Of a DNA stretch of 64,000 nucleotides, positions 10,033-56,602 are shown piece by piece. Within the stretch, counting starts at the first letter, position 1. Each line of letters opens with the position of its first letter. The notes below the pieces were generated by a model that had not been told where the DNA came from, ran no database searches, and saw only the letters and a program-made list of their open reading frames with translations. The DNA comes from Zingiber officinale. Its lineage: Eukaryota; Streptophyta; Magnoliopsida; Zingiberales; Zingiberaceae. The DNA lies in NCBI RefSeq assembly GCF_018446385.1, contig NC_055996.1:131674532-131738531 (forward strand), written 5' to 3'. Both the position numbers and the translations under genes were made by a program.

Positions 10033-10046
10033 ATCTCCCCCTTTTT
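10033..10046 (-). promoter_or_regulatory. Polypurine tract
   Basis: On the minus strand it reads AAAAAGGGGGAGAT directly before the 3' LTR, the expected second-strand priming site. Confidence 0.85.
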
Positions 10047-15900: not shown

Positions 15901-16259
15901 ACTGTCGACCCCAGTGTTGCAGCCGATTGGCAGATAGGATCTTCGATTAGAAAGGCAAAGAGGTCGTTCGACCTACACTGAAATGATTAATCAAGCATCT
16001 TAGCGATTAGTTACATAGAAGAGTGGAAGCATAAGGATTCACACTTAGAATATTTCTATTAGTATTACAAGACTATAAGGCAGGAAACTGGATAGCCTTA
16101 TGGGGCCGAGCGGGGATGCGCGAAAGGGCATTTGGAATATTTAACAGAAGCTGAAAAGCGCCAAACGAGCACGCGTTCATTGAGACTTAGAAGTTTTACA
16201 AAAGATCGACGGGGATTACAAGAAGCAATTTGAAATCTAGATAGACGACTAGTCAAGAT
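15901..16259. other. Spacer between tandem array and antisense ORF copy B
   Basis: About 360 bp of unique-looking gypsy 3' UTR. No coding or structural signal seen. Confidence 0.4.
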
Positions 16260-18394: not shown

Positions 18395-19046
<652 letters not shown>

Positions 19047-35600: not shown

Positions 35601-38600
35601 TTTTTTTTTTTGCTACTCATTCATTCTCGTTCTTATGATTTCGTTGTTGAATGGATTCTTAACTGTAAATACAAAAAAGATATGGATTTTCATCTTTCTA
35701 TTTTATGCATACTTCCTTGGCATGTTTCAGGGAATTAAGTCAGATTTATCTGGAAAGGTTGTAACTGAAGTCCAAGACTTAGCGATGCAGGTTGAACATT
35801 CAAAGAAATCTATGGATGATACTGTATCCATAGTTAAAGATCTATTCAATGATTTCTCCATCCTAGCTGATGCATTTATGGTAAATTTCTTGCTAAACTT
35901 GTAGTGACAGGTACATGTATTCCTTTTGCTTGAATTTCTTGAGTATGCCGTTTGGTAAAGATTGCTTATCCCATTTTAAATTGGAAAGGAAAACAATGTC
36001 AAATACTAGGTTTTTTTTTCTGTTCTCGTCTTTATGTTATGCAACAGCAACTTGAGTGTATGGATCTTATCCTGTGACCTCCATGTAATTTTATATCACA
36101 ACTTCACAAGTGATATCTCAACAATTCTAAATCATTTATTATTATGCTAAATATTGTTCTCGTTGATCACCTCTTCCCTATCACGACTTCAACTTTTTGG
36201 AGTTTGGTCTCATCATTGTGTCATGCTCTCGAGTCTTGAATATCTTGTGCACTCAAGAGTGATCGCCTATAGAAAGTGTTTTCAGCATATTGGTTTTGCT
36301 GGACAGGTTCAATTGTTGGCAAGTGAAGGTGCAATCTTGTGCTGGTAATTGAAGCATATCTTCTGTTCAAAATTGAACCTTTTTAGCATCATGGAAAAAC
36401 TCTAGCTTTGGCATTTGCCAATGCTACTATAAAATATGAGGATAATAGATTTTGGATGTATAACGTTGAGTCCTGCTTTGCAGCAATATTTTCTGTTTGT
36501 GTTTCCTCTGCTTGTTGATGTTTTAATCTTTGTTCTGCCTCATGTAATTTTGTGCTTTATCTCGCACTTCATTCTCTGGTAACAGTTTCTTCATATTTGT
36601 TTGTATGCCAGGAATTCAGGTCATTTGCTGATGCAGATGCTGCTCAGTTCAAATCAATAATTGCAGGACATAACGAAATACAAAGATGTACGATGAAGAG
36701 AAATTGTGAGCTTGAGCAAGAAAAGGTGTGTTGTAGCTATGCTTTTGATAAAACATCAATACTTAACCACACATTTTGCGTTGTTTGCTAACTTGCTAGA
36801 AATGCAGGACATTCTCCACAAACAATCTGTTGCCTATCAGAATCAACTGCAGGAACTTATATCTGAATTGGAAAATCAGCGGAAAGCTATGGATGTAAGT
36901 TTATTCATTATGCATGTGTTACTATGATGATCTTATCTTATCCTTTTTTATTTGTGGTAGGATCTTGGACTTCAACATGATCTTCAGAGGGATGACCTCC
37001 TGTCTCAAGTCCTCAGTCTTCAAAAAGAAGTGTCATGCTTGTCATCCTCTTCTATAGTAAGAGAGAAGGAAACCATCAGAAAGGAACTTGATAAAACCAA
37101 GGCAAAGTTGAAGGATACGGATTTCAAGCTTAAAAATGCTATTCAAGACAAGATAAAACTAGAGGTTGCCATTTATAGTTTGTATCCCTTTTGTTCAGAT
37201 ATGTTTGATCTGTAGTCTATCAAGCTTCCAGTAATTATCTTCAGAAATATTTGACAGAGTGAAAAGGCACAGGCTGAGCGAGAAATCAAGCACTTGCAAA
37301 GTCAAAATGTTGTTCTCGAACGTGATATTTGGAGACGTGACTCACTTGGTGCTAGGATGCGTGACTCTAAATCAAGTGATTATAACCGGCAAAAGGGTGT
37401 CAACATGATTGAGCAAAATCTTCAGGTCAGGTTTCTTATTCTGTCATATCTTTTAATCTTTTCATATTTCGTATGATCTTGTGCCAATTTATTAGATTGC
37501 AATTACTATAGATATAAAGCTCCATTTGTTTGTCTAGGAAGACCACCAAAAACTAGAGCTTCGTGTCTTTGAAATGGAGGCTGAGATCACTTGTTTGAAT
37601 GAGGCTTTGCTGTGTGCATTTAATGAAAAGGAAGAAGCCGTCTCAAGGAATGAATTTTTGAATTCAGAAATAGAGGCTCTTTCGGAGAAGTTAGGCACTG
37701 CAGGTTCTGAGATAAAGTCATTGAAGGGGGAGATGGTAGCCATGGTGTGTCCTACTAAGATAAACTTTTCCCTTTACTTTATCTTGTTTCCTATTTTCCT
37801 AATGGTTGTCTTCGACATGTTCTGCTACAGGCAGAGAGATTGGTTGAGTCTGAATCAGTTTTGAAAGAAACGGAGTCCTCTATGAACTCTGTGTTAAGAG
37901 AAAAAGAAGAGATGGGAATAGTAATAATTTTTTGCAACTTTCATTTGGAACACTGATTCTGGTATTTTGCTTGTGAACTTCATCCAATTTCTTCATTTCC
38001 ATTTGGTCTGCAGCAATTTGCAGATGCCCTTTTAGAAATGGAGGCAGAAAAATCGATATGGTCATCTAAAGAGAAAGCTTTGTTGGATGCTAGTGAAAAA
38101 TTAAAAATGCAGATTAATCTGACTCAGAAACTATCTGAAAATTTACAAGAGGTATTATATATGAGAGATTATTCTTATTTTTTTCCATGTCAATATTTTA
38201 TATGTTGTCCACTTAATGCCACTTTCACTTTTCATTGATCTTCGAGCACTTTATCATAAGAATAATTTGTGTATTTTGTCGTAATCCTGATGCATGTGAT
38301 AGGCAAAGAATGATCTGAAGTTTTCTGAAGAACAATGCGAGGAACTAAAGGAAAGGCTAATCTTCGTCGAAGAAAAGGCACAGGAAGAGAAACAAAGCAG
38401 GTGAATTTTTTCTTAGTTTTTTTAATAAATAAATTTGACAGGGGATGGGCCCTGTTTTGGTTGGATGTCCAACATGTGGCGTCTACCTTAGTTTGAAAAG
38501 TGGGACTATCTCTATCCTGGTTGACTAAGTTGGATATGATTGTTTTTTATTCAATTTTTCCAATTTGTCTGATGAAATGAAAAATGTTGAGATGGTATGC

Positions 38601-39992
38601 ATATATGCTTAAGGTAGAAAACTGGTTTTATAGTTATTATTTGAATCAATTTGAGTAGGTCTGAGGGGGGGTAGAATGAGATAAAAGAAAACATTTGTTA
38701 ATAGAACAAAAAAATTCAAAAGGTTTGGATATTATTAATTATATAGTTTTGCATATAGTTCAATAGAAGGATAAATTCAAAAATACTTTGAGATGGCATG
38801 ACACATATTCAAAGATGAGTTGAATCAATTAGAGGACACTATAAGCTGATGAGGAAAATTGAAGGAAATTTAGGTTAATGTAATTAATAATAATTTAATT
38901 TATTTGAGTTTTTTTTTTTGCTTTAGTCTTGCATAAAGCCCAATAAAAATATAAGATCAATCTCAAATAGTTAGGGACAAGCAATGCTTGATGAGGATGA
39001 CTTCAAGTGCCTTCCATGCTAATATAATTTTTTCTGTAATTTTATTATTTAATTTGAAGTTTATGCTCAAAAGAATTAATTTCATGCAACTTAGCTTATT
39101 TTTTTTAATATTCTATAAATTAATATAACAGTTTTGTCTTCCGCAGCTTGGCCAAGTCTTCTGAGATTGATCAACTAAGAAACGATCTTAAGCAGTGTGC
39201 AGTTGAGATTGTGGAACTGAATGAAGTGAGCCTTTCTGTTTGTTTAATCTACTGTTTTTATTTATTTATTTATTGAAAGCACATTTGTGTTATTAAAAAT
39301 CAAATCTTGATTATCCAACAGGTGAAGTCAAGATTTGAAGCACTGTCATCAGAACACCAACATACTTGTGAAGAATTACGAAAACTGCAGGAGCACGTGA
39401 GCATCATTTCTAGAGAAAAGGATGAGTTATCTTCTCTGGAATCTGCTATTGGTCAAGAATTGGTAGGTCAATTGCACAATCAGTTTTGTTAGGATGGGGC
39501 GTGTCTAGACTTGAGGAAATCAGTCTTGTTATCTGTTCAAGTTTTTATCCAATAGCACTTGTTTTCTATGCAGATAGTGAAGGCCAAGACTGATTCAAAT
39601 GAATTAGAAAAAAGGCTTTTGCAAATGGAACTCAAAATGCACAAGGTATGTGAAGCAATTACCTTTTTATTTACAATGTCAAATTTTGCATTGTGCTCAG
39701 AGATTTCCTTCTCGGGCTGGTGCTATTTTTTTCTGTGTGAGATTACTCTTTAAAGACATGATGATGCTTGCAGGATAACTTAAACTACAACAAAGAGAGA
39801 ACAAAGCTCAGAATGCAGCTTCGCTCAATGCAGGCAACTTTAGATGCTTATCGTGGTCGATACAAAGAGGTTGTCGATGAAATGGGTCTGATGAACAAGA
39901 AATATGAAGAAGCATCGACCAAGTTAAAGAAGCAACTAGCTCAATATGGTAATGAAATACTTAACTTGAAGAAGCAGTTGGTCACTAAATAA
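23618..39992 (+). CDS. KIN7O: Kinesin-7 family motor protein KIN-7O (CENP-E-like), 32 exons
   Basis: The N-terminal microtubule motor (residues ~1-334) has P-loop GQTNSGKT (78-85), switch I SSRSH (190-194) and switch II DLAGSE (228-233); a long coiled-coil stalk runs to residue 1265. Exons: 23618-23741, 23824-23913, 24070-24188, 24612-24725, 24823-24904, 25195-25262, 25346-25420, 25538-25683, 25762-25864, 26177-26257, 31592-31660, 31764-31823, 31910-32071, 33026-33079, 33937-34185, 34263-34328, 34404-34580, 34653-34757, 35505-35591, 35731-35880, 36612-36725, 36808-36894, 36961-37164, 37258-37425, 37538-37744, 37831-37920, 38014-38151, 38303-38400, 39147-39225, 39322-39462, 39574-39645, 39774-39992. 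The sum is 3798 bp with no stop. The motor sequence and exon order match Arabidopsis KIN-7O as I recall it, as does the length (about 1270). Intron 3 uses a GC donor; the others are GT-AG. Probably acts in mitosis. Confidence 0.95.
24953..25116 (+). mobile_element. Au-like tRNA-derived SINE in KIN7O intron 5
   Basis: It begins GGGGAGCTTGAC, has a B-box-like GTCACGGATTCAAATCT, and ends with AGCGGGAGCTTCGTGCACTG and CTGCCC, all typical of the Au SINE of flowering plants. A perfect 22-bp target duplication flanks it (24931-24952 and 25117-25138, a TTTATTTATT-type sequence), showing retroposition and fairly recent age. Confidence 0.92.
27268..27355 (-). mobile_element. 5'-truncated Au-like SINE, split by an hAT element
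   Basis: The minus strand gives the 3' half of the same SINE (CCTCTTGCAAAA, CTTCCCCGGGG, GGAGCTTCGTGCACCG). A 19-bp direct repeat AGATATGAAAATAGATAAA occurs left of it (27249-27267) and right of the hAT element (29918-29936), which is the SINE target duplication now separated by the hAT insertion. Confidence 0.85.
27356..29905 (-). mobile_element. hAT transposon, decayed, inside the SINE in KIN7O intron 10
   Basis: The ends are CTATGTTGCACGGATAC and, in reverse, CTAGGTAGCACAGACAC, matching at most positions. The flanking octamers GTTGCTTC (27348-27355) and GTTTTTTC (29906-29913) differ at two positions and fit a decayed 8-bp target duplication. The interior codes for a broken BED/DUF659 transposase. 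Subterminal regions are rich in variants of CCGTGTCC, as in hAT ends. Confidence 0.82.
27635..29091 (-). pseudogene. hAT transposase (BED zinc finger + DUF659), frameshifted and internally deleted
   Basis: The frame from Met 29091 has a BED-type finger ([21 protein letters not shown], with CxxC). A frameshift near 28615-28625, in a short G run, changes to the frame 28661-27843, which holds DUF659 with [12 protein letters not shown] and the second acidic block VVTDNAP. After [10 protein letters not shown] the protein jumps to a C-terminal tail ([17 protein letters not shown], then [21 protein letters not shown]), so most of the region between DUF659 and the C-terminus, including the hAT dimerisation part, is missing. 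Non-functional. A GC-rich region 29220-29640 lies upstream within the element. Confidence 0.88.
32450..32862. mobile_element. Possible old MITE in KIN7O intron 13
   Basis: The ends TAGGGATGGGGAAAA and (reverse) TAAGGACGAGAATGA match loosely. No clean target duplication. Weak call. Confidence 0.3.
38680..39090 (+). repeat. KIN7O intron 28 segment with a diverged copy at 55550-55890
   Basis: Collinear blocks are shared with 55550-55890: a GAGATAAAAGAAAACATTTG-like start, ATATAGTTTTGCATATAGTTC, and a GATGAGGATGACT block. The copy lies downstream of the second NLR gene. Confidence 0.75.
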
Positions 39993-40245
39993 TCTACTTT
40001 AATTACTATGTATTATATGATGATGCCTGCCCTTTGTAAATGTACAAGCCTGTATTATGCCTGATGCTGTTTTTGCATTGGAAACAACCAATTATTCCGT
40101 TCATGTTGGAAAAGTTGTAAGCAATTTATTATCATAGCAAAGAAGGTTTTGGTTTGAGTTTTATTTTCAAGTTTATTGTGCTAGGAGGATAGATAATGCC
40201 TATTAATTATGTAATTAAGCTCTAAGTTTTGCAAAATAAATATTT
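39993..40245 (+). other. KIN7O 3' UTR, parent of a copy at 47918-48135
   Basis: Immediately after the kinesin stop. About 80 bp (40078-40156) are nearly identical to 47963-48042. Confidence 0.8.
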
Positions 40246-40984
40246 TTCTATATTTATCTTTTGTTTGGTTCAACTAACTTTATCTCTCTTTCGATTTAAA
40301 AATTTAATTTTTAAACTCGTTTTAAATCTCTAAGATAAACTTGTAGTGCGTGTGATCTTATAAGTTTTCGGTTTGACATCCATAATTAATTATTAATTAT
40401 GGAATGATTATGAGTGATATTAGTAGTATATTATGATCTTCAATTGATTGAAAAATTATAGTTGATTTTAGAACCACTTTTGAACCTTGTGTTTCATTTT
40501 TTTCACTTGTCTTATACCAATTTGGTTTAGAATATGGTTTATTTGTCAGCCTCTACTAGTTTGATTATGTCATACCTAGTCCAAGTAATATTTTTTTGTC
40601 TTGCTGATTCAAATTACTCGTACATGTGACCACGAGTACAATACTCTTAACATGTGATGTTTTGGTCAAAGACTTTGAGTAACAATCTTGACAAGTGGTC
40701 ATACGGTATACATCTTCTTATAAGGAGTGGTGAATTTTTTGTTAACTATTCAAATATCTTCGGACACTTTGACTAATTAGAAATCAAATACGATGTGGGA
40801 AGAAGAGCATATAGAATTGTGATGTAAGTAACTTAGACATCAATTTTGACGAGCTGGTCTCAACATGCCATTGGCGATAAAATACTTACCAGATCCTTAA
40901 CAAGTCAATGGAGAGCCTTTTAAATAATGGATTTGAACCATGCCATTTGACATCACGTTGCTTCCATGATTTGTGAGAAGGGTA
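40246..40984. other. KIN7O-NLR1 spacer, first part
   Basis: AT-rich with no gene. The motif GGAGAGCCTTTTAAATAA near 40909 recurs near 50762 and, changed, near 55932. Confidence 0.6.
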
Positions 40985-41270
40985 TGGGTGCGCTTGTTTT
41001 TTTGGAAAGGAATATGAATGGTAATGGAAATGATGATGATAAAAGATGAATACTCAGTGTTCTCGCTAATTCGTCCCAAGAATATGAATGATAATGTAAA
41101 TAAAAATAATAGAAGTGTAGAATGAGAATGAAAAGATTTCTATACCCTGCTAAGTAATCCCATATTTGAAAGATTGATTCTGTAGGACCTATCATTATTT
41201 ACTCAAATCAAGCACCGTTATTTCATTTTTTTTTTCTATTTCTCTTTTCATACCATCCAACCAAGTACAT
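40985..41270. mobile_element. Degenerate Harbinger/Tourist-like MITE
   Basis: It starts GGTGCGCTTGTTT and ends CCAACCAAGTAC, similar to the neighbouring MITE ends. Interior A/T-rich with GAATGAGAATG-like repeats. Borders uncertain. Confidence 0.5.
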
Positions 41271-41274
41271 CTAA

Positions 41275-41529
41275 GGGGGTGCTTGGTTTGTGGAAGGGAA
41301 TGAGATTAGGAATGAGATTCATTGAAGTAAGAATGTGAATGAGGAGTTTTGAATCCGTGGACCCCACCATTCCCATTCCCCCCATTTTACTTGGTAATGG
41401 CCAAATCTCATATTTGGGGGTTTGAATCCGTGGGCCCCACCATTCCCATTCCAAACATTAACATTCCAAACACTAACTTTCAATCCCTTTCCCATTCCTT
41501 ACTTCCATTCCCTCCAACCAAGCACTCCC
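41275..41529. mobile_element. Tourist-like (PIF/Harbinger) MITE
   Basis: 255 bp with terminal inverted repeats GGGGGTGCTTGGTTTG and (reverse) GGGAGTGCTTGGTTGG. The 3-bp target duplication TAA flanks it (41272-41274 and 41530-41532), the signature of this superfamily. Inside, a segment reading TTTGAATCCGTGGRCCCCAC is repeated twice. Confidence 0.88.
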
Positions 41530-41532
41530 TAA

Positions 41533-43187
41533 GTAAACACTATCAATAGGAGACTTTCCTTGTCCAATCAAAGTACCTAATCAGAAGCAATTATGTAACA
41601 ATGATGAAGCCAGGCTATTGTATTTTTTACTACAAATTAAAATTTAGTTCAGTTTAATTTATTATTATTATTATTATTTATTTTAATTGTAATTTTAAAA
41701 TTATTTAAATGTTTTAGCTAATTATCAATGAAAATAAACTTTTATACAAATAATTTAAATACAACTCAATTGGGATATACTAAATATATAAAACTAACTA
41801 AACTCAGTTAGAAGCCAAATGCTAGTTGTGTTTTCGAGAGCATGCAAATTGGGCTCCCACGGACATAGTCAAATTAATATGATAGATGAGATCGAATTCC
41901 TGAGAATAATCTTATGGGGGAATAAAATTACTTGACATCAATTGGTGTGACCTTTTTTTCCAAATACGGTAGGAAGGACATGGAGGTCTAGACATTTGAT
42001 AGTTTGATTTTTAACTATAGTATATTTGTAAAAAATATTTCTCTAAATAGATACATAATTAATAAATATTAAATTTTTAGACCGTTCATCATAAATATTT
42101 CTTAATTTACTTTAGTGACTAATTAAAATAATTCTATAGAATCAAACGATTACCTCAAAACTAGCTGAGTTTATCAATTTTTTTTTTACAAGAAGGAATG
42201 CTTAGAATGAATTGGCAAATTGAGATGTACATAAGATGGATGTCACTTTTGATGAACAAATTTGAATATGTCTTGATAATAAAATATTTGCTTGTTGTTT
42301 AAGACATAAATGGAGAGCCTTTGTGATCTTGGTTTGTTAGAATGATCATAATAATCATCATGAATTTTACTGAACGGTTGCCGTAGGTATATGAAAATAT
42401 TAATTTATACATTCATTCGATCTATAATTCTAGACATTCTTAATAATAATGATAATAATAATAATAATTAAAATTAATTAGTATTTAATTTAATTAAATT
42501 TATTTATGAAAATATAATAATATAATTAATAGTTAATAGGAAAATAATTTTATATGATCATATAATTTTTTTAAGATTTTTAAAAATTTAAAATGAATTT
42601 GTATTATATTTTATTTTAAAATGATTATATTTCTAGAAACTGAATTTTATTTATTAAAATCTAAATTCTAAGTTCTAAATTTCTAGAAGCATGGTACGTC
42701 TTACCGTCTTCTCTCACGCGCCTAAACCCTAAATCACCGCCGCTGCGCCGTGCCCCGCCCCGTGAGGTGCCGCCACGCCGGAGCGCCTCCGACGTCGTTG
42801 TCCGATTCATCCAGAGGTAATCATTTCTGATCCGATCCGTTCTTTTGCCTTTATAACGTCCGAGAAATGCGTTTCAAAACAAACCACGTTATTTACCGGA
42901 ACTTTGGAACGGCTTGAGGCGTTCACGTGCCGGGACGCCCGTTCCGGCCGTTCCAAGTCCGCCCCGACGAACCATGATTGTGACGGGCATGGTGAGCAGG
43001 GATTTGTACGAATTTTGCTGGAGATCCAGCCCTTTTTAAATAATAATCGATTTAATATCCATAAAAAAGGAAGACCTCAAGGAGTCGTCGGCCTGCAAAA
43101 TATTAATATTGCTCTCTTTTCTTCTCCAAAGGTATCATTAGCCACATCCTCCGCAAACAACTTCTGCATAATCCATCATCCGGAGCT
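41533..43187. other. NLR1 upstream region
   Basis: Contains a segment at 41540-41600 that matches the NLR2 upstream region at 50865-50930, then AT-rich sequence. A GC-rich patch at 42710-42990 stands out and may be a 5' UTR exon or a gene fragment: it includes CTAAACCCTAAATC and a GAG|GTAATC donor-like site near 42816. Confidence 0.55.
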
Positions 43188-46100
43188 ATGGCAGAAGCTT
43201 TGGTAAGTGATGCGTATCGCCTCATGAGCGAGAGGCTAGCAGATCTCCTCCAACTCAACGACAAACTCAAAGCTACAACTGGTATCGAAGGGAAGATGGA
43301 GAAGCTCAAGTTCTTGTCCACGATCATTGACAAGGTGATCCAAGAGGTCGACTCCCGTCCTTTTATTGATGATGCCGTGAAGGACTTGCTCAAGAAACTC
43401 AAATACTTGGCCTGCGATCTTGAGGATGTTGTGGATCACTATGACACCAAAGTCTTGCAGATGCAGATATCAAATGCTTCTTTTGAGTCGGTCCGTGATT
43501 TCATCTCTTCTGATAATCTGTTTAAGAGCAGGGTAAATTGCATGATAAAAGCTATAACACAAAGTCTGGATTTTATTTTGCTACAAAAGTCCATTCTTCT
43601 TAATTTGCCACAAAGCAGTAGCCACATGTCATTAAATCCCTACAGAGAGACCCACTCCCGAAATAGCTTTGTTGTTATAGGAAGAGAAACAGAGAAGAAT
43701 ATGATTGTCAATATGTTAACAAATGATGATGATGATGATGAAGAAGAAAGCAACCATGCCACAGTGAAGGTCATTGCCATCGTCGGAATGGGTGGCCTGG
43801 GGAAGACTACACTTGCTCAGCTTGTTTACAATGATACGAGGGTGCAAGAGCATTTTGCAAGTTTGACAATGTGGAAAATTGTTGGGCCCGAATTTAATCC
43901 CACAAAGATACTGAAGTCTATATTAGAATTGGCTACTCGTAAATCTGTCGGCATCTCAGAAATAGACTTAGTGAGACAGGAGCTAGAAACAACATTATCT
44001 GGTAAGAGGTTTTTGCTCGTGCTGGATGATGTATGGAATGAAGATGCATTAAAGTGGGGTGTACTGAAAGCAGCCTTAACATGTGGGTCTAGAGGAAGCA
44101 AAATTTTAATGACAACCCGTAACCAATGTGTTTCTTCCATCATGGACTCATCTTATATCCACCAAATGAAGCAGTTGTCCCCAGCTGATTGTTCGTTCTT
44201 GTTTCAAAAATTTGCATTTGGTGACAGAAAAGTGGATCGAACCTTGATGGAAATTGGTGGAAAGATTGCTAAGAAATGTGGCGGTGTTCCCTTGGCTGCC
44301 ATTTCTCTTGGTAGCATGCTCCGCATCACTCGAGATGAAACCTATTGGTCCTCGGTATTGAACAGTGAAATATGGCAGTTGGGAAATGAGGAAGATAAAG
44401 TGTTAGCTGTACTAAAGTTGAGCTATGACACCCTCCCTCCACGGTCAAAGAAGTGTTTCACATTTGGCTCCTTATTCCCAAAGAACTATAGGATGGCAAA
44501 GGATGAATTGATAAAACTGTGGATAGCAAATGATTTTGTATGTTCAGAAGGAAATTTTGATGCTGAAACAAATGGCAACCTTGTCTTTAATGATCTACTA
44601 ATGGGGTCATTCATTCTCTGGGCACCTTCCAATGTTTATGATGATAGTCATGTAAACATGTGCACGATGCATGATTTGATGCATGATCTGGCACGATCAG
44701 TATCTGCAAATGCATATTGGAATTCTGATCAAGACTCAGTGGAAGATGTTGGAAACAGAACATATCATTTGCAAATTCAACGAGGAGAGGAATCAAGCAT
44801 GACTCAGGTTTTAGGAAAGAAACCATTGTACTTGCGCACCTTTATGTATAATTCCTCGCGTTTGAGCATCAATCTGCTTGAAGTCTTTTCAGAATTGAAA
44901 TTTTTGCGGGCGTTAGATTTAAGATACTGCGGCATCAGGGAGGTGCCGACATCAATAGGAAATCTAATACATTTGAGGTACATCAACTTATCTAACAATA
45001 TGATTGAAGTTCTACCCGACTCCATAACCCTTCTCTCCAATTTACAGTATCTCAATCTCGGTTTCAATAAGGAACTTCGAGAGCTACCAAAAGATTTAGG
45101 GAATATGCAAAGCCTTAGGGATCTTGATTTATCAAGTTATTTATTTGATAGTGGTTTTAAATTGACACACATGCCATGTGGGTTGTCACGATTAACTAAT
45201 CTTCGAAGTTTATCTGTCTTTGTTGCTGGGGATGGAACTGATGCATGCTCAATTATAGAACTTGAGGATTTGAAGCTTCATGGAGAAATGGAAATTAAAT
45301 TTTCTGATGATTTTAAGAATTATTCTTGTGGTGGAAGAAAAATCTTGAAGAATAAAGATCTTAATGAACTATGCATAAAGTTTAATGGTTCAGAAAGATA
45401 TGACAAGGACATGTTGGATGATCTTTGTCCCAACACGAGCTTAAAGAAGTTAACCATATCCAACTATGGGAGTCCACAATTCCCAACATGGTCGATAGAT
45501 TTACAACTGCCAAATTTGGTTGAAGTTTACATTACAAGCCGTTTTTGTGAGCATCTTCCTCCGTTTGGAAATCTACAGTTTCTTAAGAAGCTCGACTTAC
45601 GGTGTATGCATGGTATCAGACAAATGGGTGTTGAGTTCCATGGGTGTGGAGGCTTTCCTTCCCTTCAAGAACTCATATTGGATGGGATGTATATTTTAGA
45701 GGAATGGTCGGAGTCTCATGGTGTCAATCAGTTGTTCCCTTTACTACAGCGAGTGAAGATAATCAATTGTCCAGAATTAAAATGCATGCCGAGGCTTCCT
45801 AGAATCCAAGAGCTTGAGGTACTTTGGTGCAGGAGGAGGCTACTCTCATGTGTTGGAAGACTGACTTCTCTTTCTGTTCTTGAAGTAGTTGATGTGCGCG
45901 ACATGGTATCTCTTCCAAGTGGCTGCATCAGAAACCTCACATTCTTGACGAAATTAGAAATTATAGCTTGCGAACAACTCCAATCTCTCCCTGGGGATGA
46001 AATGAAGCACCTAAAAATGCTTCGTTCATTGATCATTGAAGGTTGTTATAATTTGACATCCTTCCCGTTAGAAGTGGGGCATCTCAGTTCTCTTTGTTTT

Positions 46101-46616
46101 CTACGGCTCTCAGGCTGCCCAAGTATAATATTGCATCCAGAAGAACTCGTACAAATCTTGAATTCAATACCTGAGTTCGAAATACAGATTTGTGGCAACA
46201 AAGTCAATTTAAGTGAGCAACTGCAACACTTACACACGCTCGGAGGATTGTTGCTAACTGGTGATCATAATGCATCAGATCTGTTCGAGAACCATGCGTA
46301 TGAACATCCAGAATTATGTATTTGTTGTTGTGATGAATTGGAGTTGTTGATGACAGCAGAAGCAGCAAGCAATATTGTGCTAGAAGAACTACACATAAAT
46401 GGAATTTCCAATCTCACGACCTTGCCTGACTGGTTGCTTCATCTCAAATCTCTTAGTTTACTATCAATCGAGAATTGCCCACTACTAGAAAGACTGCCAA
46501 AGAATTTGAAGAACATACATATGTTAGAAGGTTTGACGATTGACAATTGCCCACAACTGGAAAGTAGATGCAAAAGGGAGACAGGCGAAGATTGGCCGAT
46601 CATCTCATATCTGTGA
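43188..46616 (+). CDS. CC-NB-ARC-LRR disease resistance protein (RGA-like), NLR1
   Basis: An intracellular immune receptor of 1142 residues. Rx-type coiled coil (1-~130) with EDVVDHYDT near 79-87; an acidic linker of five Asp and three Glu near 180-187; NB-ARC with P-loop GMGGLGKTT (200-208), kinase-2 LLVLDDVW (~276), RNBS-B near 301, GLPL as CGGVPLAA (~364), RNBS-D CFTFGSLFPKNY (~422) and MHD as MHDLMHDLA (~494). The LRR region follows, from about 540 to the end. All core NB-ARC motifs are intact. RNBS-A reads WKIVGPEF, unlike the usual W-V-S-D-F pattern. The coding exon has no intron. An intron appears to lie in the 3' UTR, with donor GTAAG at about 46661 and acceptor TAG before GCCGAGG at 47249. 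NLR2 is its tandem paralogue. Confidence 0.95.
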   Translation: MAEALVSDAYRLMSERLADLLQLNDKLKATTGIEGKMEKLKFLSTIIDKVIQEVDSRPFIDDAVKDLLKKLKYLACDLEDVVDHYDTKVLQMQISNASFESVRDFISSDNLFKSRVNCMIKAITQSLDFILLQKSILLNLPQSSSHMSLNPYRETHSRNSFVVIGRETEKNMIVNMLTNDDDDDEEESNHATVKVIAIVGMGGLGKTTLAQLVYNDTRVQEHFASLTMWKIVGPEFNPTKILKSILELATRKSVGISEIDLVRQELETTLSGKRFLLVLDDVWNEDALKWGVLKAALTCGSRGSKILMTTRNQCVSSIMDSSYIHQMKQLSPADCSFLFQKFAFGDRKVDRTLMEIGGKIAKKCGGVPLAAISLGSMLRITRDETYWSSVLNSEIWQLGNEEDKVLAVLKLSYDTLPPRSKKCFTFGSLFPKNYRMAKDELIKLWIANDFVCSEGNFDAETNGNLVFNDLLMGSFILWAPSNVYDDSHVNMCTMHDLMHDLARSVSANAYWNSDQDSVEDVGNRTYHLQIQRGEESSMTQVLGKKPLYLRTFMYNSSRLSINLLEVFSELKFLRALDLRYCGIREVPTSIGNLIHLRYINLSNNMIEVLPDSITLLSNLQYLNLGFNKELRELPKDLGNMQSLRDLDLSSYLFDSGFKLTHMPCGLSRLTNLRSLSVFVAGDGTDACSIIELEDLKLHGEMEIKFSDDFKNYSCGGRKILKNKDLNELCIKFNGSERYDKDMLDDLCPNTSLKKLTISNYGSPQFPTWSIDLQLPNLVEVYITSRFCEHLPPFGNLQFLKKLDLRCMHGIRQMGVEFHGCGGFPSLQELILDGMYILEEWSESHGVNQLFPLLQRVKIINCPELKCMPRLPRIQELEVLWCRRRLLSCVGRLTSLSVLEVVDVRDMVSLPSGCIRNLTFLTKLEIIACEQLQSLPGDEMKHLKMLRSLIIEGCYNLTSFPLEVGHLSSLCFLRLSGCPSIILHPEELVQILNSIPEFEIQICGNKVNLSEQLQHLHTLGGLLLTGDHNASDLFENHAYEHPELCICCCDELELLMTAEAASNIVLEELHINGISNLTTLPDWLLHLKSLSLLSIENCPLLERLPKNLKNIHMLEGLTIDNCPQLESRCKRETGEDWPIISYL

Positions 46617-47917
46617 AATATTTATATACACTACGGGGATTCAGAAGGACATTTTGAAAAGGTAAGATATAAAACCATTATAGTTAAATAAACAACATCA
46701 TTATATATATATATTTGTATGGTTGCATAGCATAGCATGATTTCTTTTTTATCCAAAAATCTTAGTTTTCAAGCATCCACTTGATAATAATGTTGATATA
46801 TATGGTAATTTATAGGAGATTGTTCAGTGCTGTTGTATACATGCATGTTGATGGAATTCTTGTAATATTTTCAAAAAGATTTTTAAAAAATAGATTGCAA
46901 AAAAGGAGAATCCTGGGAGCTTTCAAAATTCTCATAAAGAATAGTCACTTATTTAAAACTAATAGCAAAATTTAGACATTTATATATACATATAAAACCG
47001 TATACTTTTTTTTTTGTAATAGCTGTTTTGCACAACGCATTTATTATGCAAATGTGATAATACTGATTGGAATACTCTTAAAATAATTCGTATGATGATA
47101 TTAGAGAAACATTAATTCAATTACATCTACGGTGTTGTCATCAATTTTATTCAATCATGATTTTTTTTTTGAAAAAATCTCTTTTAGGTTATTAAGTTCG
47201 TTTGTGCTCATCATGCCTTTTGTCTTTCTTTGACCTCTAAAATGGTAGGCCGAGGATGAAGATTGGGCAGATGAAGACTGAGCATATGAAGACTGAGCAG
47301 ATGAAGACTCGGCATGAGAGTTGCATCTCATGAAATCCTTTATTGCTAGTAAATTTGTTTTAAGTTTTTTATTTTCAGAAACTTTGAAAGTATATATGTG
47401 GTTTATTATGCGTCACACTAGGACTTCATTTGTCGTTGGATACATTATGATTTTCCTCTCTTGGTGGATGCTACGTGGGATCTTTTTGTTGCTTTATGGT
47501 GGTGTTATGTAATAAATAAACTATTTGATATTGAGTTTGACAATTATGTGATTTGATACTGATCATTTGCATACATTGCAGTTTTTTTCTTAAACGTGGA
47601 TGCACTTTTGTATAAAATAGAAAAGTTCGGTTAAAATGTTTCTAAGAAAATGAATAATTAATACAAGCACTCGACTGCAAATAAAGGAATTCTCAAAAAC
47701 AATATTGTTGCAATCTTTGCAAAAAATGTTACCCAAGTTATTTTGTGTTAATCTCATAGATAAACATTTACATGTTAAAATCACTGCAAGTCCACAATAA
47801 CAAGTGAACATTTGCCATCTTAAATCCTTGCTAATGTACAGAAAACTAATGGCATGATCACTTTTTAGATGACTCGATAACATAGTAAATTCAATTTTTC
47901 CTAGGAACATAACCCTC
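46617..47917 (+). other. NLR1 3' UTR intron, second exon and 3' flank
   Basis: Probable 3' UTR exon from 47249 (GCCGAGGATGAAGATTGGGC), homologous to the final exon of NLR2, and carrying three tandem 18-bp GATGAAGACT-type units at 47266-47313. The sequence 47330-47590 aligns with NLR2 flank 54865-55090. No other gene seen. Confidence 0.65.
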
Positions 47918-48135
47918 GTCTATATGATGATTCCTGCCCTTCTGACTCATACTGTTTTCTCAATGGAAACAACCAATCATTCCGTTCATGTTGGAAAAGT
48001 TGTAAGCAATTTATTATCATAGCAAAGAAGGTTTTGTTTTGTTTTGAGTTTTATTTTCAAGTATATGGTGCTCGCTAGATAGCTAATGCCAATTAATTAT
48101 GCAATCAAGCTCTAAGATTTGCAAGATGTGTATTA
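47918..48135 (+). repeat. Duplicated copy of the KIN7O 3' end
   Basis: Includes an ~80-bp block nearly identical to the KIN7O 3' UTR (GGAAACAACCAATCATTCCG, then GAAAAGTTGTAAGCAATTTA), followed by AATTATGCAATCAAGCTCTA as in the parent. There is no exon. Confidence 0.9.
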
Positions 48136-48564
48136 AATAAAGATTTGGAATGGTAGTTTTTGATTATATGAAATATATACATTATGATGTGGATATATTT
48201 ATCAACTTGTTTATCTTTATATAAGATATATTTACACTATAGGATTTGAATGAGAAACAAAATAATATTGCGTAGTCTTAGTTATCTCTTTTAGGCTTCT
48301 TTCTTTATGCTCTATACAGGGCTGACCCTGACTTTTTGGAGCCCATGGGCGAAAAGAGAAAGGGACCCTATAGGAAAAAAATTTATACTAACATACAATT
48401 TGAATATAGTTTAATAGAAAAATTTAAACTCCATACAAAATATATTTCTCAAGATTCTTTAAAAAATCATATATTTTTTAAGTTTTTCCAAAAAGTATAA
48501 TAGCTACAAATACAAAAAAAAAAGTATAAAATAATCATTGAAAAAATCTATAGCTTCTAGCATT

Positions 48565-49220
48565 TTAAGAAGCAAAATCATCAATAAGGTTTTCAAAATC
48601 AATTTTTTTTAACACCTCATTTTCGATACATAAAATTGTCAAACCATTTATATTCAAATCATTATCATCTTCTTCTCTCAATTCTTCTTGCTCATTCGTT
48701 GCATGATTATGATCATCATTTTCTCTTAATTCTTCCTGCTCATTAATTGTATTATCATTTAGTTCTTCTTGATTACTCAATTGCTGCTCATTTGTTGTAT
48801 GATCATATAGTTCTTCTTGACTTTCTTCTTGTAATTCATCAATTGAATCTTCAATTGAAGAGCTAACTTTAAAAAATTACAAAGAACATCTTTGTGATTT
48901 TTAATAATCTGTTCCACTTTTTTTATATTCTTTTCTAATTCCAAGATTGATATTTTTTGAAAACATGTTTGTACTACAAATTTCAAGTGTAAAAATAAAA
49001 CACACATAATCAACAACAAAGCTAACAATGAAACAAACACAAGTAGTGAAAATAATAGTTGAAGAACAATATAGCCTGGTTTATGCTCGAAACAATCGAT
49101 ATAATTTATTCTATAATGATTAAAATTGAGATGATTTATTTTAACTCTTTCAAATCGATAAGAAAAACCATAAAATATTGGCTCCAATACAATATAAAAA
49201 TTAATATTGAATATTGACAA
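48565..49220 (-). pseudogene. hAT transposase C-terminal remnant plus unrecognised frame
   Basis: The frame ending at 48565 finishes LTILCIENEVLKKIDFENL and then IDDFAS, which resembles the C-terminus of hAT transposases of the TTF-finger/DUF4371 type. Before it is an Asn/Glu-rich repeat (NEQEELRENDD, NEQEELREEDD). The frame 49220-48777 has a hydrophobic stretch (LLFSLLVFVSLLALLLIMCV) and a Lys-rich part that I cannot assign. No catalytic domain remains. Confidence 0.55.
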
Positions 49221-49689
49221 TAAGAAAAAAATATAGATAAGTAGGTAGCTTACATTGTAAGTTTATATATTGATGAATTATGATATTGATGAAACTAAAA
49301 TTTCAATTGGAGATTATAATTTTCTGGTTTAATTAGAAGAGATTCAAAGAAGAAGAAAGGACAAAATAATTAGTATTCAGAATTCATACTTTACTCTTCA
49401 GAAGTCATAATCTTATGACTTCTGTAAATAAATTAATGAAGAAAGAGCTGCACAAACAATAAAATCTTGGAAAGAGAAAAAATGATCATTTACCTTCCTT
49501 CTTTTTTTTTTCTTTTATTTTTTTATTAAATTTTAATAGAAAATATATTTTTGGGACATTTATTAAAACAATTTAATAATATATATTTGGATCTTTATTA
49601 AAATAATCCAGTAATTTTTTTTAGGTTTTTATTAAAATAATCTAATTATATATAATATATATTATATATACATGTCAAATTTGGGGCCC

Positions 49690-49848
49690 CCTGATCAGAT
49701 CCTCTGTCCCAAGATTCTTGTGTCCCTCCTCGTCGATCGGACGGTCATGACAGCCTCGTGATGTGCACTGCATCCTTGAGATATGATCTAGCCCGTCCGA
49801 TCGGTGAGGTGACACGGAGAATCTTGGGACAGAGGATATGATCTCAAA
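49690..49848. mobile_element. MITE nested in the hAT element, same family as 18853-19046
   Basis: The arms begin GATCAGATCCTCTGTCCC and (reverse) GATCATATCCTCTGTCCC. The interior shares CCTTGAGATATGATCT and the CGATCGG motif with the MITE at 18853-19046. Confidence 0.75.
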
Positions 49849-49909
49849 AATCGGGGGCCCTTGTCCATCGCCCTCGGTGACATGCCTCAAGGCTGGCCTT
49901 GGCTCTATA

Positions 49910-50460
49910 GGATGTAAATGAACTGAACGTTCGTGAATAAGTTTAGTATTAGTTCAGTTTAGTAAGAGTTTGTTTATATTTCTTCAATACACATAAAATC
50001 AATTAAATGAATAAACTTGCATAATTTGTTAAATTAAACGAACAAGCTTGTATACATGTGTACAACTCGTTAATGTTTATGAACAACGTTCTAAATAATA
50101 TTTATAAATAACGTTCGTAAACAATATTCGAGAATTATGTTCATAAATAAAACTCTATTAGCATGCTAAATAAACAAATACACTTTCAACATGAACAAAT
50201 AAGTTTGTATTATCAAACTCAATAATCAATCAAACAAGTTTAAAATGTAAAAATTTTAAATTATCAAACAAATATGATTTGGGAGACCGATAACATTAAG
50301 CTCAAGCCTATTTGAATGAAGCTCAAGCTCATAAAAAGGGAACCAAGCTAAGTTTGAATAATGATTTTAACGGCTTGATATATTTTAGACTTGTCTTGAT
50401 TTAATTACTTTATTAAACAAACTTGAATAATATAAAATTTGACTCGACTTAGATCATTTA
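49910..50460. repeat. AT-rich dispersed-repeat-like sequence
   Basis: Repeated GAACGTTCGTGAAT / AACGTTCGTAAACAA-like words and AAGCTCAAGC words give it the look of an old transposon, but I cannot set borders or a family. Confidence 0.35.
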
Positions 50461-51167
50461 TAACTCTATTTATGGTACTCACATTCCTCAAAATAGTTGG
50501 AGTTGCCCATGAATGGAAGCTTGTGCGCGGTTGCATTATAAGAAGGAAAAAAAAACCATTTTATTTATTCTAATGTTCTTTAATTATTTGATTTATAATT
50601 TATAATAATTTAAAAACAAATTGAATTTATATTTTAAAACAGTAGGGGAGCGCTATTTGGTTTCTCATGCACCATTTTAATTAAATTAATGCCAATTTGC
50701 AAGTATTTAGAATAATTAGAAATCAATGCCATGGCAATAAATACTTAATTGCCACAAAGATGGAGAGCCTTTTAAATAACGGATTTGACACCACCGCAAT
50801 TGCTTTCATGGGCAATAAAGATTAGCTTAATTGTCCCAATCGAAAGCTGTGACTTGAGGGGAGGGTAAGTAAACAATCATTATCGGAGACTTTCTGCGTC
50901 CAATCAAAATGCATAATCGGACTAAATGATTGATGTAGCAGTATCGAAGACTAGAGTAGTTGACCGATGCAATTTTTACAATTATTGTATGTATCGGAGA
51001 CTTTTTATTTTTTTTCCATTTAAGTATATAAAAATGGATATTACAAAATTGCAAACTCTTGTTCGTCTAAATTAGTGGTTATTTACATTCTCCAAAATCT
51101 TCCAGGCACGACAAATTAAAGAAGAAGAGCTTCTAAATCTTTGTTGTTCTAAGTTTCAGGCATAGCT
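50461..51167 (+). promoter_or_regulatory. NLR2 upstream region
   Basis: A TATATAAAAA box lies at 51025-51034, about 135 bp before the start codon. The region 50755-50930 is homologous to the KIN7O-NLR1 spacer (40900-40990 and 41540-41600), confirming duplication of the promoter side. Confidence 0.55.
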
Positions 51168-54100
51168 ATGGAAGCACCTTTGCTAGCTGTGGGTCGCTTC
51201 ATGGTGGACAAGGTGGCAATTCTCGTCGAACTCGACGAGAAACTCAAGGCAATAACTGGCATCAAAGGGAAGATGGAGAAGCTCAAGGAGTTGTCCACCC
51301 TCATTGACATGGTGATCCAAGACGTCGAGTCCCACCCTTTAAATAAAGATGCCGTGAAGGACTTGCTGAGGAAGATCAAATACTTGGCCTACGATCTCGA
51401 GGATGTTGTGGATTACTATGACACCAAAGTCTTGCAGAAGAAGCAGAGATCAAACACTGCTTTAAGGCCGGTGTGCGATTTCTTCTCTTCTAATAATCAA
51501 GTTGTATTTAAGAGTATGATAGGCGGCATGATCAAAGCTATAACAGATAGTCTGGATTCTATTTTACTGCAAAACTCCATTTTTCTTAATTTGCCACAAG
51601 GCAGTATTCGCACGTCGGAATCAAATCTCCATGAAGAGAGACATTCCCGCACTAGCTTGGTTGTTATAGGGAGAGATACAGAGAAGAATATGATTGTCGA
51701 CATGTTAACAAAGGATGATGATGAAGATGAAAGTAGTACTCATGATACATTGAAGGTCATCGCCATCGTTGGGATGGGTGGCCTGGGGAAGACTACACTT
51801 GCTCAGCTTGTTTTCAACGATGAGAAGGTGAAAGCTCATTTTGAAAGTTGGAGAATGTGGAAAGTTGTTGGGGCTGAATTTGATCGTAAAAGGCTAATGA
51901 AATCTGTTTTAGAATTGGCTACTGGTAAACCAGTCAACATCTCAGAAATAGATTTAGTGAGGCAGGAGCTAGAAAAAACATTATCTGGGAAGAAATTCCT
52001 GCTCGTCCTGGATGATGTATGGAATGAAAATGCATCAAGCTGGGATGTGCTGAAAGCAGCCTTAACATGTGGGGCGAGAGGAAGCAAAGTTTTGGTGACA
52101 ACTCGTAGCCTACGGGTCTCTTCAATTATGGGTTCAAATACCACCCACCAAATACAACAGTTGTCTCGAGATGATTGTTTGTCCTTGTTTCAACAATCTG
52201 CTTTTGGAGATGAAGCAGCGGACCAAAAGTTGATGGGAATCGGTGGAAAGATTGTTGAGAAATGTGGCGGTGTGCCCTTGGCTGCCATATCTCTTGGTAG
52301 CATGCTCCATGACACTCGAGATGAGACTTATTGGTCCTCGGTGTTGAAGAGTGAAATATGGCAGCTCCAAGATGAGGAACAGAAAGTATTAGCTGTACTA
52401 AAGTGGAGCTATGACTCTCTCCCTCTACAATCAAAGAAGTGCTTCGCATTTGGCTCCCTATTCCCAAAGAACTATATGATGAACAAGGATGAATTGATAC
52501 GACTGTGGATAGCAAATGGTTTCGTAAGTTCAGAAGGAAATTTTGATGCAGAAACATTGGGCAACCGTATCTTTGATGATCTTGTGTCGAGATCGTTCTT
52601 TCTCTTGGTACCATCTCAAGATGTAACCGAGTGCACAATGCATGATTTGATGCATGATCTGGCACGATCAGTATCTGCAGATGTATATTGGAATTCTAAT
52701 CAAGACTCAGTTGAAGACATTGGTAAACGAACATATCATTATTTGCAAATATTTCCGGGAGAATTACCAAATGATATGTTTTCTCAGGTCTTAAGCAAGA
52801 AGCCATTGTACTTGCGCACCTTTATGTCCCAAGATACATCTTCACACTTGAATATCAACCTGCTTGATGTCTTCTCAAAACTGAAATTCTTGCGGGTTTT
52901 AGATTTAAGATCCAACAATATCAAGGAGGTACCAGCATCAATAGGAAATTTGATACATTTGAGGTATCTTAACTTATCTTGGAATGATATTGAAGTTTTA
53001 CCCGACTCCATAACCCTTCTCCTCAATTTACAATATCTTCATTGCAATAACCTTAGATTGACATACATGCCTCGTGGGTTGTCACGACTAATTAATCTTC
53101 GATGTTTACCCCACTTTGATGCTGATAACAGAAGTGGGGCATGCTCAATTACAGAGCTTGAGGATTTAAAGCTTCATGGAGAAATGACAATTAAGTTTTC
53201 AAAGAATTTTAAGAATTATTCTTGCGGCGGAAGACAAATTTTGAAGAATAAACATCTTAGTGAACTATCCTTGCATTTTAATTGCTCGGAGAGTAATGAC
53301 AAAGACATGTTGGATGATCTTTCTCCTAGCACGAACTTAAAGAAGTTGAGCATACGCAATTACGGGAGTAGACAATTTCCAGCATGGTTGATAGAGTCAC
53401 ACTTGCCAAATTTGTTGGAAGTTAGCCTTGACAATTGCTATGGTTGTGAGCATATTCCCCCGTTTGGAAATCTGCAGTTCCTTAAGAAGCTTCGCTTATG
53501 CATAATGAATGACATTTTCACACAGATGGGTGCTGAGTTCCACGGGCACGGAGGCTTTCCTTCCCTTCGAGAGCTCTCCTTATCTTCGATCTATAATTTA
53601 GAGGAATGGTCTGAGTCTGATGGCGTCGATCAGTTGTTCCCTTTACTGCAGAAGTTGCGGATTCTGCGATGTCCCAAATTGAAATCAATGCCGAGGTTTC
53701 CGAAAATCCAGGAGCTTGAGATATCATATTGCAGTGAGAGCCTACTCTCATGTATCGGAAGGTTGAGTTCTCTTTCTGTTCTCAAAGTGGAGGATATGAA
53801 CGACATGACATCTCTTCCAAGTGGCTGCATCAGAAACCTCACATGCTTGAAGAAATTGAAAATTACAGAGTGCGGACGACTCCAATCTCTTCCTGGGGAT
53901 GAAATGCAGCACCTAGAAATGATGCGTTCGTTGACCATTTACAGTTGTAACAATTTGTCATCCTTCCCGTCAGAGGTGGAGCGTCTCAGGTCTCTACGTC
54001 TCACGAGATCTCAACGTATAGCAGTGGAACCAGAATTACTCGTACCATTCTTAAATTCACTGAATAAGTTCCGAATAGAGATTTGTGGCAAGAAGGTCAA

Positions 54101-54810
54101 CTTACGCGGGCAACTGCAACGCTTACACACGCTCAAAGAATTGTTAATAAGTGGGAAACATGGTACATTTTGCTTTTACCGCAAAGCCACGAAGTTAGGC
54201 ATTTGTTGTTGTGATGAATTGGAGTCGTTGATGACGACAACAGAGTTAGCAGCAAGCAGTACTGTACTGCTAGAAGATTTATACATAAATGAATTTTCCA
54301 ATCTCACGACGTTGCCTGAGTGGCTACAGCATCTCAAGTCTCTTCGTATTCTATCAATCCGGAACTGCCAACGATTAGAAAGGGTGCCAAGGGGTTTGAA
54401 GGATCTATCTATGTTGAGAGTTTTGAAGTTTATCAATTGCCCACAGCTGGAAGGAAGATGCGAAAGGGAGACAGGAGATGATTGGCCCATCATCTCGCAT
54501 GTGACACAGGTTGTTGTCTGTCAAGTTCCTCAGATTCGATTGAACATAGTTCAACAGGTAAGATTGAAAATCATTTTAGTAGTAAAATATATAACTAGTA
54601 AGATGATATTGGATAAATATTAATTTAATTATATCTTTTGATTCCCTTACAGTGGTGTAAATTGATTGAGCCTATACTGAAAGAACTTGATTTTAGAAAC
54701 CCAATAAGAACTCAAAATAGAAAATACAAGTTCATAAACATCCAACTTGTTTATTGCCCTATTGAACTGACCTTTTTTTTTTACCTTAATATTTGTAGGC
54801 CGAGGGTTGA
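51168..54810 (+). CDS. CC-NB-ARC-LRR disease resistance protein (RGA-like), NLR2
   Basis: An intracellular immune receptor, tandem paralogue of NLR1. Coiled coil with EDVVDYYDT; P-loop GMGGLGKTT (202-210); kinase-2 LLVLDDVW; GLPL as CGGVPLAA; RNBS-D CFAFGSLFPKNY; MHD as MHDLMHDLA; then LRRs. I favour a splice: exon 1 51168-54557 (donor GTAAG) joined to 54799-54810 (acceptor TTTGTAG, then GCCGAGGGTTGA), giving 1133 residues. The same donor and acceptor are found after NLR1. If unspliced, the frame runs to 54623. Compared with NLR1, 30 residues are missing early in the LRRs. RNBS-A reads WKVVGAEF, again unusual. All core motifs look functional. The ligand is unknown. Confidence 0.94.
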
Positions 54811-55549
54811 GATTGGGCATGAGATCTTAATTATTGTTCAGAGATGTATCTATTGTGTCCTCTGATGTGAAATGAAGTTTGCAAGTAAATTTATTTTATT
54901 TTTCAAATACTTTAAAATATATGTGGATTATTAGTGTAGGATACATTATGTTTTTTTCTTATTCAAAGGATTATTGTTATGTTATGTGGGATCTTTTCGT
55001 TGCTTTATGGTCTAATAATTATATCATAAATGATCTACTTGATATTGGATCGCCAATTTAGTGATTTGATACTAGTTATTTTGCATACATTATTATTATT
55101 TTTCTTATACTACAATTCTCTTTTGCATAAAATAGAGAAGATTCTGTCAAAATATTTTTGTAAATATATATATATATATATGCTAAATGCCAACTTTGAA
55201 ATGATTAAGCGTATGCCTCTAGAAAAACAAGTACAATATAAGTAGATGTTCTGCAATACTTACATATTTGAAATAAACTTTTTTTTTTAATGTTTTTGGT
55301 GCAATTAACTTATAAAAAAAAGCTATTTCACAAATTTTAATTGATATGATAGTTCAAGGTTATGTTATCACCTGGTGTCTCATTCAAAGAAGCTACTATA
55401 ATGGTATTATAATTCAATCATGACTAACAAGACATGACTTCTCATTCCTTTATCAATAAGGAGCAAACTAATTCGTTGCAAATAGGTATTCAAGAGGAAA
55501 AAAAATGGAAATAATATTATGAAATTAGAAATATAGATTGGTAGAGTGA
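54811..55549 (+). other. NLR2 3' flank
   Basis: Homologous to the NLR1 flank to about 55090, then AT-rich with a TA repeat near 55165. No gene seen. Confidence 0.55.
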
Positions 55550-55990
55550 GACAAAAGAAAACATTTTTTTAATATAACAAAAAAAATGAGTTCAAAAGAT
55601 TTGAATATTATTAATAATATAGTTTTGTACATATTCAATAGAAGAATTATCTTGAAAAAAACTTTGCGATGGCAATTCAGAGATGAGTCAATGAAGGAAG
55701 ATTGAAAGAAATTTTGATTGATTCAATTAATAATAGTTTAATGTATTTTAGTATTCCTTTGGCTATAGTTGGGGTTTGATGAATGATGAGGATGACTAAC
55801 GCTATTTTATTTATTTTTTTTGTAATTTTATTATTTAATGAAGTTTATACTTAAAAGAATGTCTTGTGCAATTTAATTTAAAAAAAAATGAAAAATCAAA
55901 TTAAAATATTACTTTAAATAAAAGTAAACGGAGAGACTTTTAAATAATGGATTTGACATCACTTCCACGAGCAACAAAAAATTAGCTTCT
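55550..55990 (+). repeat. Diverged copy of KIN7O intron 28 followed by the spacer motif
   Basis: 55550-55890 aligns in order with KIN7O intron 28 (38680-39090). About 40 bp later GGAGAGACTTTTAAATAATGG matches the spacer motif found before NLR1 and NLR2. No kinesin exon remains between them. This looks like the start of a third duplication unit. Confidence 0.72.
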
Positions 55991-56244
55991 TAAGAATAAA
56001 TGATACACTAATGACCTTAAATAAGAGAGCGTTTACTTTCAACTTTATTTTCTTAAAAACACACGTTGTTTTTCAGAAAATAATTTTTAAATATTCTTTA
56101 TTTTTTTATAAAATGATATCTTACTTTCAAAAAAACGCCGTCAACCAAACAATATTTTCTCTTTTTTAATAAAATGAAAAAGAAAAAAAAAAATAACCAA
56201 ATCAAATGCTGTCTTAATTTTTAGCAGCAAAATAACCTCATTCA

Positions 56245-56295
<51 letters not shown>

Positions 56296-56339
56296 TAAAT
56301 CAAATTGTTTTATTTTTAGCAGCAAAATAACCTCATTCA

Positions 56340-56391
<52 letters not shown>

Positions 56392-56463
56392 TTTTGAATG
56401 AGGTTACTTTGACCAAATCAAATGCTGTCTTAATTTTTAGCAGCAAAATAACCTCATTCAAAA

Positions 56464-56507
<44 letters not shown>

Positions 56508-56602
56508 AATGAGGTTACTTTGACCAAATCAAATGCTGTCTTAATGTTTAGCAGCAAAGTAACCTCATTCAAAAAATATATATATATATATATATATAGG
56601 TC
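56245..56602. repeat. (TA)n microsatellites alternating with a ~70-bp palindromic unit
   Basis: Four TA tracts (near 56248, 56345, 56468 and 56577) are separated by copies of a unit with the inverted ends TTTGAATGAGGTTACTTTG and CAAAATAACCTCATTCAAA around a CAAATGCTGTCTTAAT core. Open frames here are repeat artefacts (Ile-Tyr runs). Confidence 0.88.

Follow-up and report, generated by a model that had tools for sequence, protein, structure and literature searches.

Two neighbouring immune receptor genes in ginger (Zingiber officinale) probably arose by a tandem duplication that included the end of an adjacent kinesin gene. The genes, NLR1 and NLR2, follow the kinesin gene in a 64,000-nucleotide stretch of contig NC_055996.1 (assembly GCF_018446385.1, positions 131,674,532 to 131,738,531 of the forward strand). 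This whole stretch is called the window below, and positions are counted from its first letter. The reading is drawn from one sequence, and its probability is put at roughly 0.83; that figure excludes the further detail that all copies came from a single unit.

In the proposed mechanism, a segment that begins late in a kinesin-7 gene, runs across a spacer and takes in one CNL gene with its 3' end would have been copied in tandem, either by unequal exchange or by end-joining. What is left today would come from three units or more, arranged head to tail; those seen here are called A, B and C. The first would retain a working kinesin end. The second would retain the kinesin 3' untranslated region (3' UTR), a spacer and NLR2, with neither kinesin intron nor exons. 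The third would retain only a piece of intron and a spacer, any NLR having been lost or lying beyond the window. The deletions, the mechanism of exchange and a single common unit starting near kinesin intron 28 are the parts of this account that we infer.

Evidence for the duplication is provided by blocks that recur on the plus strand. The whole window was compared with itself, as were its three non-coding intervals (from the kinesin end to NLR1, from NLR1 to NLR2, and after NLR2). Block scores were set against 100 dinucleotide shuffles per region pair, the best of which reached 41.0, 36.5 and 41.0 bits. Three pairs of blocks score far above the shuffles. The kinesin 3' UTR (40014-40246, unit A) matches 47921-48136 in unit B, about 1.3 kb past the NLR1 stop, with a best piece of 223 bits and a nearly identical core. 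Part of kinesin intron 28 (38670-39090, unit A) matches 55540-55874, which lies after NLR2 and forms the start of unit C (blastn, 147 + 66 bits). Finally, the 3' flank of NLR1 (47225-47660) matches that of NLR2 (54775-55176), with a best piece of 115 bits. Weaker self-matches, below 41 bits, were set aside. Matches to an AT-repeat array at about 56200-56600 were set aside as simple sequence, including one on the opposite strand (49628-49673 with 56299-56252) that, at 44.6 bits, lies above the shuffles.

The spacers supply a further set of matches. Copy A1 (40862-40979, with the GGAGAGCC core) was found by self-comparison, shuffles and profile search. Copy B (50711-50833) lies about 400 bp before NLR2, and copy C (55887-55991) is followed by no NLR in the window. 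The spacer cores score 47-51 bits, modestly over the shuffle maximum of 41, and the local alignments of the whole spacers (A1-B, A1-C and B-C) each beat 200 of 200 shuffles. The motif GGAGAGCCTTTTAAATAA is exact at 40910 and 50762 and has one mismatch at 55930; elsewhere, at up to four mismatches, it occurs at a single site, with four mismatches, on the minus strand at 6224. After the spacer, units A and B share one more block (41530-41600 and 50866-50936, 46 bits). The resemblance of a motif at 43010 to the spacer lacks significance (equalled by 32 of 200 shuffles).

Profile searches of the window return four spacer copies, all on the plus strand. The fourth, A2 (42218-42336), was recognised by local alignment to A1, with a score of 80 that none of 200 shuffles reached, and by nhmmer, whose model was built in part from A2 (1.5e-11 at 42265-42335). 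Its alignments with B and with C, equalled by 9 and 8 of 200 shuffles respectively, fall short of significance, so only A1 ties A2 to the family. It sits 1.4 kb past A1, within the spacer between the kinesin gene and NLR1, and may mark another unit that has been lost.

The order of these blocks is as a tandem duplication predicts. Unit A reads intron 28, last kinesin exons, 3' UTR, A1, an insert described below, the block at 41530-41600, A2, NLR1 and its 3' flank. Unit B reads 3' UTR copy, spacer B, the block at 50866-50936, NLR2 and its 3' flank. Unit C reads intron copy and spacer C, and then other sequence. Thus A and B are collinear over the 3' UTR, spacer, post-insert block and NLR, and A and C over the intron and spacer; B with C, or NLR1 with NLR2, are collinear over the 3' flank and spacer. 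An earlier, preliminary description of this DNA had named four such similarities, and self-comparison recovered all four, on the same strand and in the order it gave, with coordinates that agree or are slightly wider. Its 3' UTR repeat (40078-40156 with 47963-48042) is the inner part of the match reported here, and its spacer motif, placed near 40909, 50762 and 55932, lies within two bases of those positions. Spacer copy A2 and the post-insert block are additions to its list.

Most of the blocks also diverge to a similar extent. Between NLR1 and NLR2, synonymous divergence (Ks) is 0.395 (bootstrap 0.334-0.462) and nonsynonymous divergence (Ka) is 0.201, over 1098 codons. Jukes-Cantor (JC) distances are 0.355 +- 0.037 for the NLR 3' flank (385 aligned bases), 0.336 +- 0.038 for the intron 28 copy (329 aligned bases) and 0.40 +- 0.09 for the post-insert block (71 bases). 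The Ks and these three distances agree, which is what a single old segmental duplication, or a few separated by little time, should leave. Both the collinear, same-strand blocks and the agreement in divergence for most of them are direct observations.

A different origin for the non-coding blocks would be dispersed repeats that inserted separately near the NLR genes, with only the NLRs and their 3' ends duplicated. The window is indeed repeat-rich, and intron 28 (38401-39146, its borders placed by eye and not all of them exactly) is unusually long, as if it held an insert: it measures about 746 bp, and four introns nearby (three downstream of it and one upstream) roughly 95-150 bp. A terminal inverted repeat (TIR) score for the intron block in C, reached by 19 of 500 random intervals, is weakly suggestive. 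However, the corresponding scores were reached by 58 of 500 intervals for the intron block in A, by 315 and 432 for the 3' UTR blocks and by 443 for spacer C. Separate insertions also fit poorly with copies that are collinear on one strand and with an intron divergence near the NLR Ks. Across the 64 kb, profile searches turned up no additional copy of the 3' UTR, the intron or the flank block, a result that excludes very abundant repeats only. Taken with the rest, this makes an origin from dispersed repeats improbable.

Under the tandem-duplication reading, more than one duplication is required, because the 3' UTR copy precedes NLR2 while the intron copy comes after it. The order would call either for three units later shortened by deletions or for two events that differed in their borders. 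In the second variant, two separate duplications had different breakpoints in the kinesin gene: B would have been copied from just past the kinesin stop codon, and C from intron 28, later losing its exons and 3' UTR. The blocks begin where this variant would place them, about 20 bp past the stop codon for B and within intron 28 for C, and the junction stretches that precede the two copies do not align with each other. Yet the intron and NLR values (0.336 and 0.395) are alike within error, so that no difference in age is seen, and deletions in a common unit would produce the same borders. Two separate events are a tentative possibility that deserves real weight.

Several observations weigh against the tandem-duplication reading, or against parts of it. 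Of the two stretches that join NLR to kinesin sequence, 47660-47921 measures about 260 bp and 55176-55540 about 365 bp, and their alignment is equalled by 101 of 200 shuffles. Neither do they match the kinesin stretches tried (83 of 200 shuffles as good for 38000-40014, and 169 of 200 for 36000-38670). A border common to the units thus appears to lack support from the junctions. Between the 3' UTR and the spacer, an interval of about 2.6 kb in B compared with about 0.6 kb in A, neither end of A aligns with that of B (shuffles as good: 194 and 113 of 200). The stretches that lead from the post-insert block up to each start codon, 41600-43187 for NLR1 and 50931-51167 for NLR2, do not align either (60 of 200 shuffles); just upstream, the two genes thus no longer show a recognisable relationship. 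The sequence of C past its spacer has no homology to that before NLR2 in B (73 of 200 shuffles), and to the left of the intron block there is none above shuffles. By tblastn, no exon copies survive in units B or C. Spacer divergence depends on the aligner, being 0.51 in a global and 0.18 in a gap-tolerant local alignment, and for this reason the spacer was left out of the dating. The 88 columns common to A1, B and C hold 34 differences for A1-B, 37 for A1-C and 29 for B-C; with so few columns and such poor alignment, they do not reveal which event came first. Lastly, the 3' UTR pair has a JC distance of 0.14 +- 0.028, well under that of the other blocks.

The unaligned junctions bear on the breakpoints in particular. 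Old junctions may have decayed, so their failure to align weakens the claim of a breakpoint rather than that of a duplication. The preliminary description had spoken of direct breakpoint evidence, a wording that is not supported, as no junction can be given to the base. Because the junction stretches match neither one another nor the kinesin stretches tried, the unit is outlined here but its breakpoints are not given. The same description had proposed a copied unit of kinesin end, spacer and NLR with a partial third. Block order, strand and divergence (0.395, 0.355 and 0.336) bear out this outline, which either one unit with later deletions or two events could have produced. It had further set, in advance, equal divergence among the blocks as a check. 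This is found for the NLR Ks, the 3' flank, the intron and the post-insert block, and not for the 3' UTR (0.14 compared with 0.34-0.40).

The 3' UTR pair therefore needs separate treatment. If the pair had diverged as fast as the other blocks, so few differences (no more than 27 in 211 bases) would be very rare (P 4e-7 to 9e-10). Halving those rates, to mimic constraint on the working kinesin copy alone, makes the count unexceptional to marginal (P 0.21 to 0.04). The NLR coding alignment, by comparison, shows 27 differences too in its best 211-base window. Within the 3' UTR pair the differences are unevenly spread, with 8 in 43 bases, then 2 in 85, then 17 in 83. The middle stretch, to which the pair mainly owes its closeness, is the core (40079-40163 in A, 47964-48053 in B), and it was picked after the data had been seen. 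The longest run of identical aligned bases, with gap columns omitted, is 58, a length reached in 16 of 5000 permutations; a 5-base insertion in copy B falls inside it. One-sided constraint accounts for the mean of the block, but not easily for the core, which conversion or constraint on both copies would explain. To fit the duplication, then, the block requires one further assumption, either constraint or conversion.

Gene conversion would be an addition to the tandem-duplication reading. Here, the 3' UTR would have been duplicated with the rest, and its 85-base core later overwritten by a short tract from the kinesin gene. Both the contrast between the core and its sides and the 58-base run are what such an event would leave. 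On the other hand, constraint in both copies yields the same pattern, and the core contains a 5-base length difference. Conversion is best treated as possible but rather doubtful.

Alternatively, the 3' UTR copy could be a 5'-truncated retrocopy of the kinesin mRNA that landed past NLR1 more recently. Such an event would explain a start just past the stop codon and a divergence below that of the rest of the dated blocks. As judged by eye, however, no poly(A) tract follows the copy in B. The copy also sits on the same strand where tandem duplication predicts it, and is followed by the spacer block and NLR2. A retrocopy is accordingly very improbable.

The core might also have been kept by selection in both places, with NLR1 terminating its own transcripts at the end signal taken over from the kinesin. 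We consider this unlikely; if true, copying a neighbour's tail provided an immune receptor with a new 3' control element. A structured RNA is unsupported, since folding of the core region is no better than shuffles in either A or B (z 0.90 and 0.46) and no Rfam family reaches its gathering score anywhere in the window.

The gene at the left of the unit carries a kinesin motor domain (Pfam Kinesin). CENP-E supplies the two top PDB matches to a portion of the motor region (66 bits, compared with 49 for the next), which fits a kinesin-7. The name KIN7O comes from the preliminary description, as does the numbering of intron 28; the evidence obtained reaches the kinesin-7 level, not the subgroup. 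The last coding exon, with the stop codon, is at 39774-39992 (translation, tblastn). A tblastn search with the last six exons, the first of them in part, found no second copy in the window: 61 of the 73 rows lay outside 37900-40000, and these, the best with an E of 0.23, were all taken as chance.

NLR1 (43188-46616, 1142 aa) and NLR2 (51168-54623, 1151 aa unspliced) are intact reading frames on the plus strand. Both proteins exceed the Pfam cut-offs for Rx_N, NB-ARC, WH_DRP (winged helix) and LRR models and are thus CNLs. They share 64% protein identity, and the best PDB match of NLR1 is Sr35/CNL9. A third NLR was not found in the 64-kb window by tblastn; a 23-residue match to NLR2 on the minus strand (11096-11028, E 0.33) was taken as chance. 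Each gene has a likely 3' intron, GT...AG by eye, at 46662-47248 and 54558-54798. The NLR1 stop lies 45 nt before its intron, and the NLR2 frame apparently continues into the exon that follows. The 3' flank block of NLR1 covers the end of this intron, a likely terminal exon and sequence beyond, with splice sites placed by eye.

Spacer A is interrupted at 41271-41533 by an insert on the plus strand that resembles a miniature inverted-repeat transposable element (MITE), with terminal inverted repeats and, by eye, a flanking TAA. Its TIR score was reached by none of 500 random intervals. The block at 41530-41600 resumes directly after it. Because B carries the matching right flank without the insert, the insertion probably came later than the duplication. 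A second MITE-like element was suspected at about 40985-41270, and its TIR was not significant (156 of 500). In unit B, the unmatched stretch 48300-49910, between the 3' UTR copy and the spacer, is by eye probably a transposon; it contains an inner inverted repeat (49693-49843), a portion of which resembles 18947-19044.

Other repeats occur elsewhere in the window. A 1.2-kb direct repeat (58545-59717 and 60183-61355, 92% identity) probably represents long terminal repeat (LTR) elements. It lies beside a minus-strand reading frame (61569-63968), which we take from the look of its sequence to be of copia type. A direct-repeat pair at 8946-10033 and 12205-13103 is 91-93% identical, its members about 3 kb apart, and a long, diverged tandem-repeat array occupies 14604-15903, upstream of the kinesin motor exons.

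The process seen here is an ordinary route of resistance-cluster growth, as precedents in coffee, tomato, banana, common bean and rose indicate, and the ginger locus is a well-preserved example of it. At tomato Cf-4/9, pieces of a lipoxygenase gene reportedly lie between the Hcr9 copies. The locus is described as flanked by conserved lipoxygenase sequences (PMC4766677); its genes encode receptor-like proteins, not NLRs, and the neighbour is not a kinesin. For the coffee SH3 CNL cluster, the legend of an evolution figure names flanking genes other than resistance (R) genes as well as truncated gene versions, and the duplication edges were not tied to mobile elements (PMC3113787). There, the process was shown by comparing three genomes or sub-genomes, whereas the ginger locus is read from one sequence. 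Banana RGA08 resembles it in that the non-coding intergenic sequence separating its NLR copies is duplicated, and unequal recombination has been inferred between such duplicates (PMC3017797). It differs in size, with 13 and 18 RGA genes and pseudogenes at 70 to 99% identity, and remnants of a neighbouring gene go unmentioned in the sections consulted. Common bean Co-2 also shows segmental duplication of CNLs, with junctions examined (PMC6102362), but its duplications are large and subtelomeric and were assigned to end-joining and homologous recombination. In rose, signatures of illegitimate recombination flank eight duplications and indels that lie inside the TNL genes (PMC3503547). Among the matches listed in the open-licence literature (titles and abstract openings), no case that pairs a kinesin with NLRs was found.

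What seems uncommon is the number of non-coding parts still legible at a Ks near 0.4, together with the preserved 3' UTR core. Old NLR duplications often retain little besides coding similarity, and the size of the duplicated unit is then hard to know. In ginger, the UTR, intron and spacer remnants allow the unit to be outlined and the traces of at least three copies to be counted at a synonymous divergence of about 0.4. The preserved core, in turn, offers a specific test case for the reuse of duplicated neighbour sequence as a control element of an immune gene.

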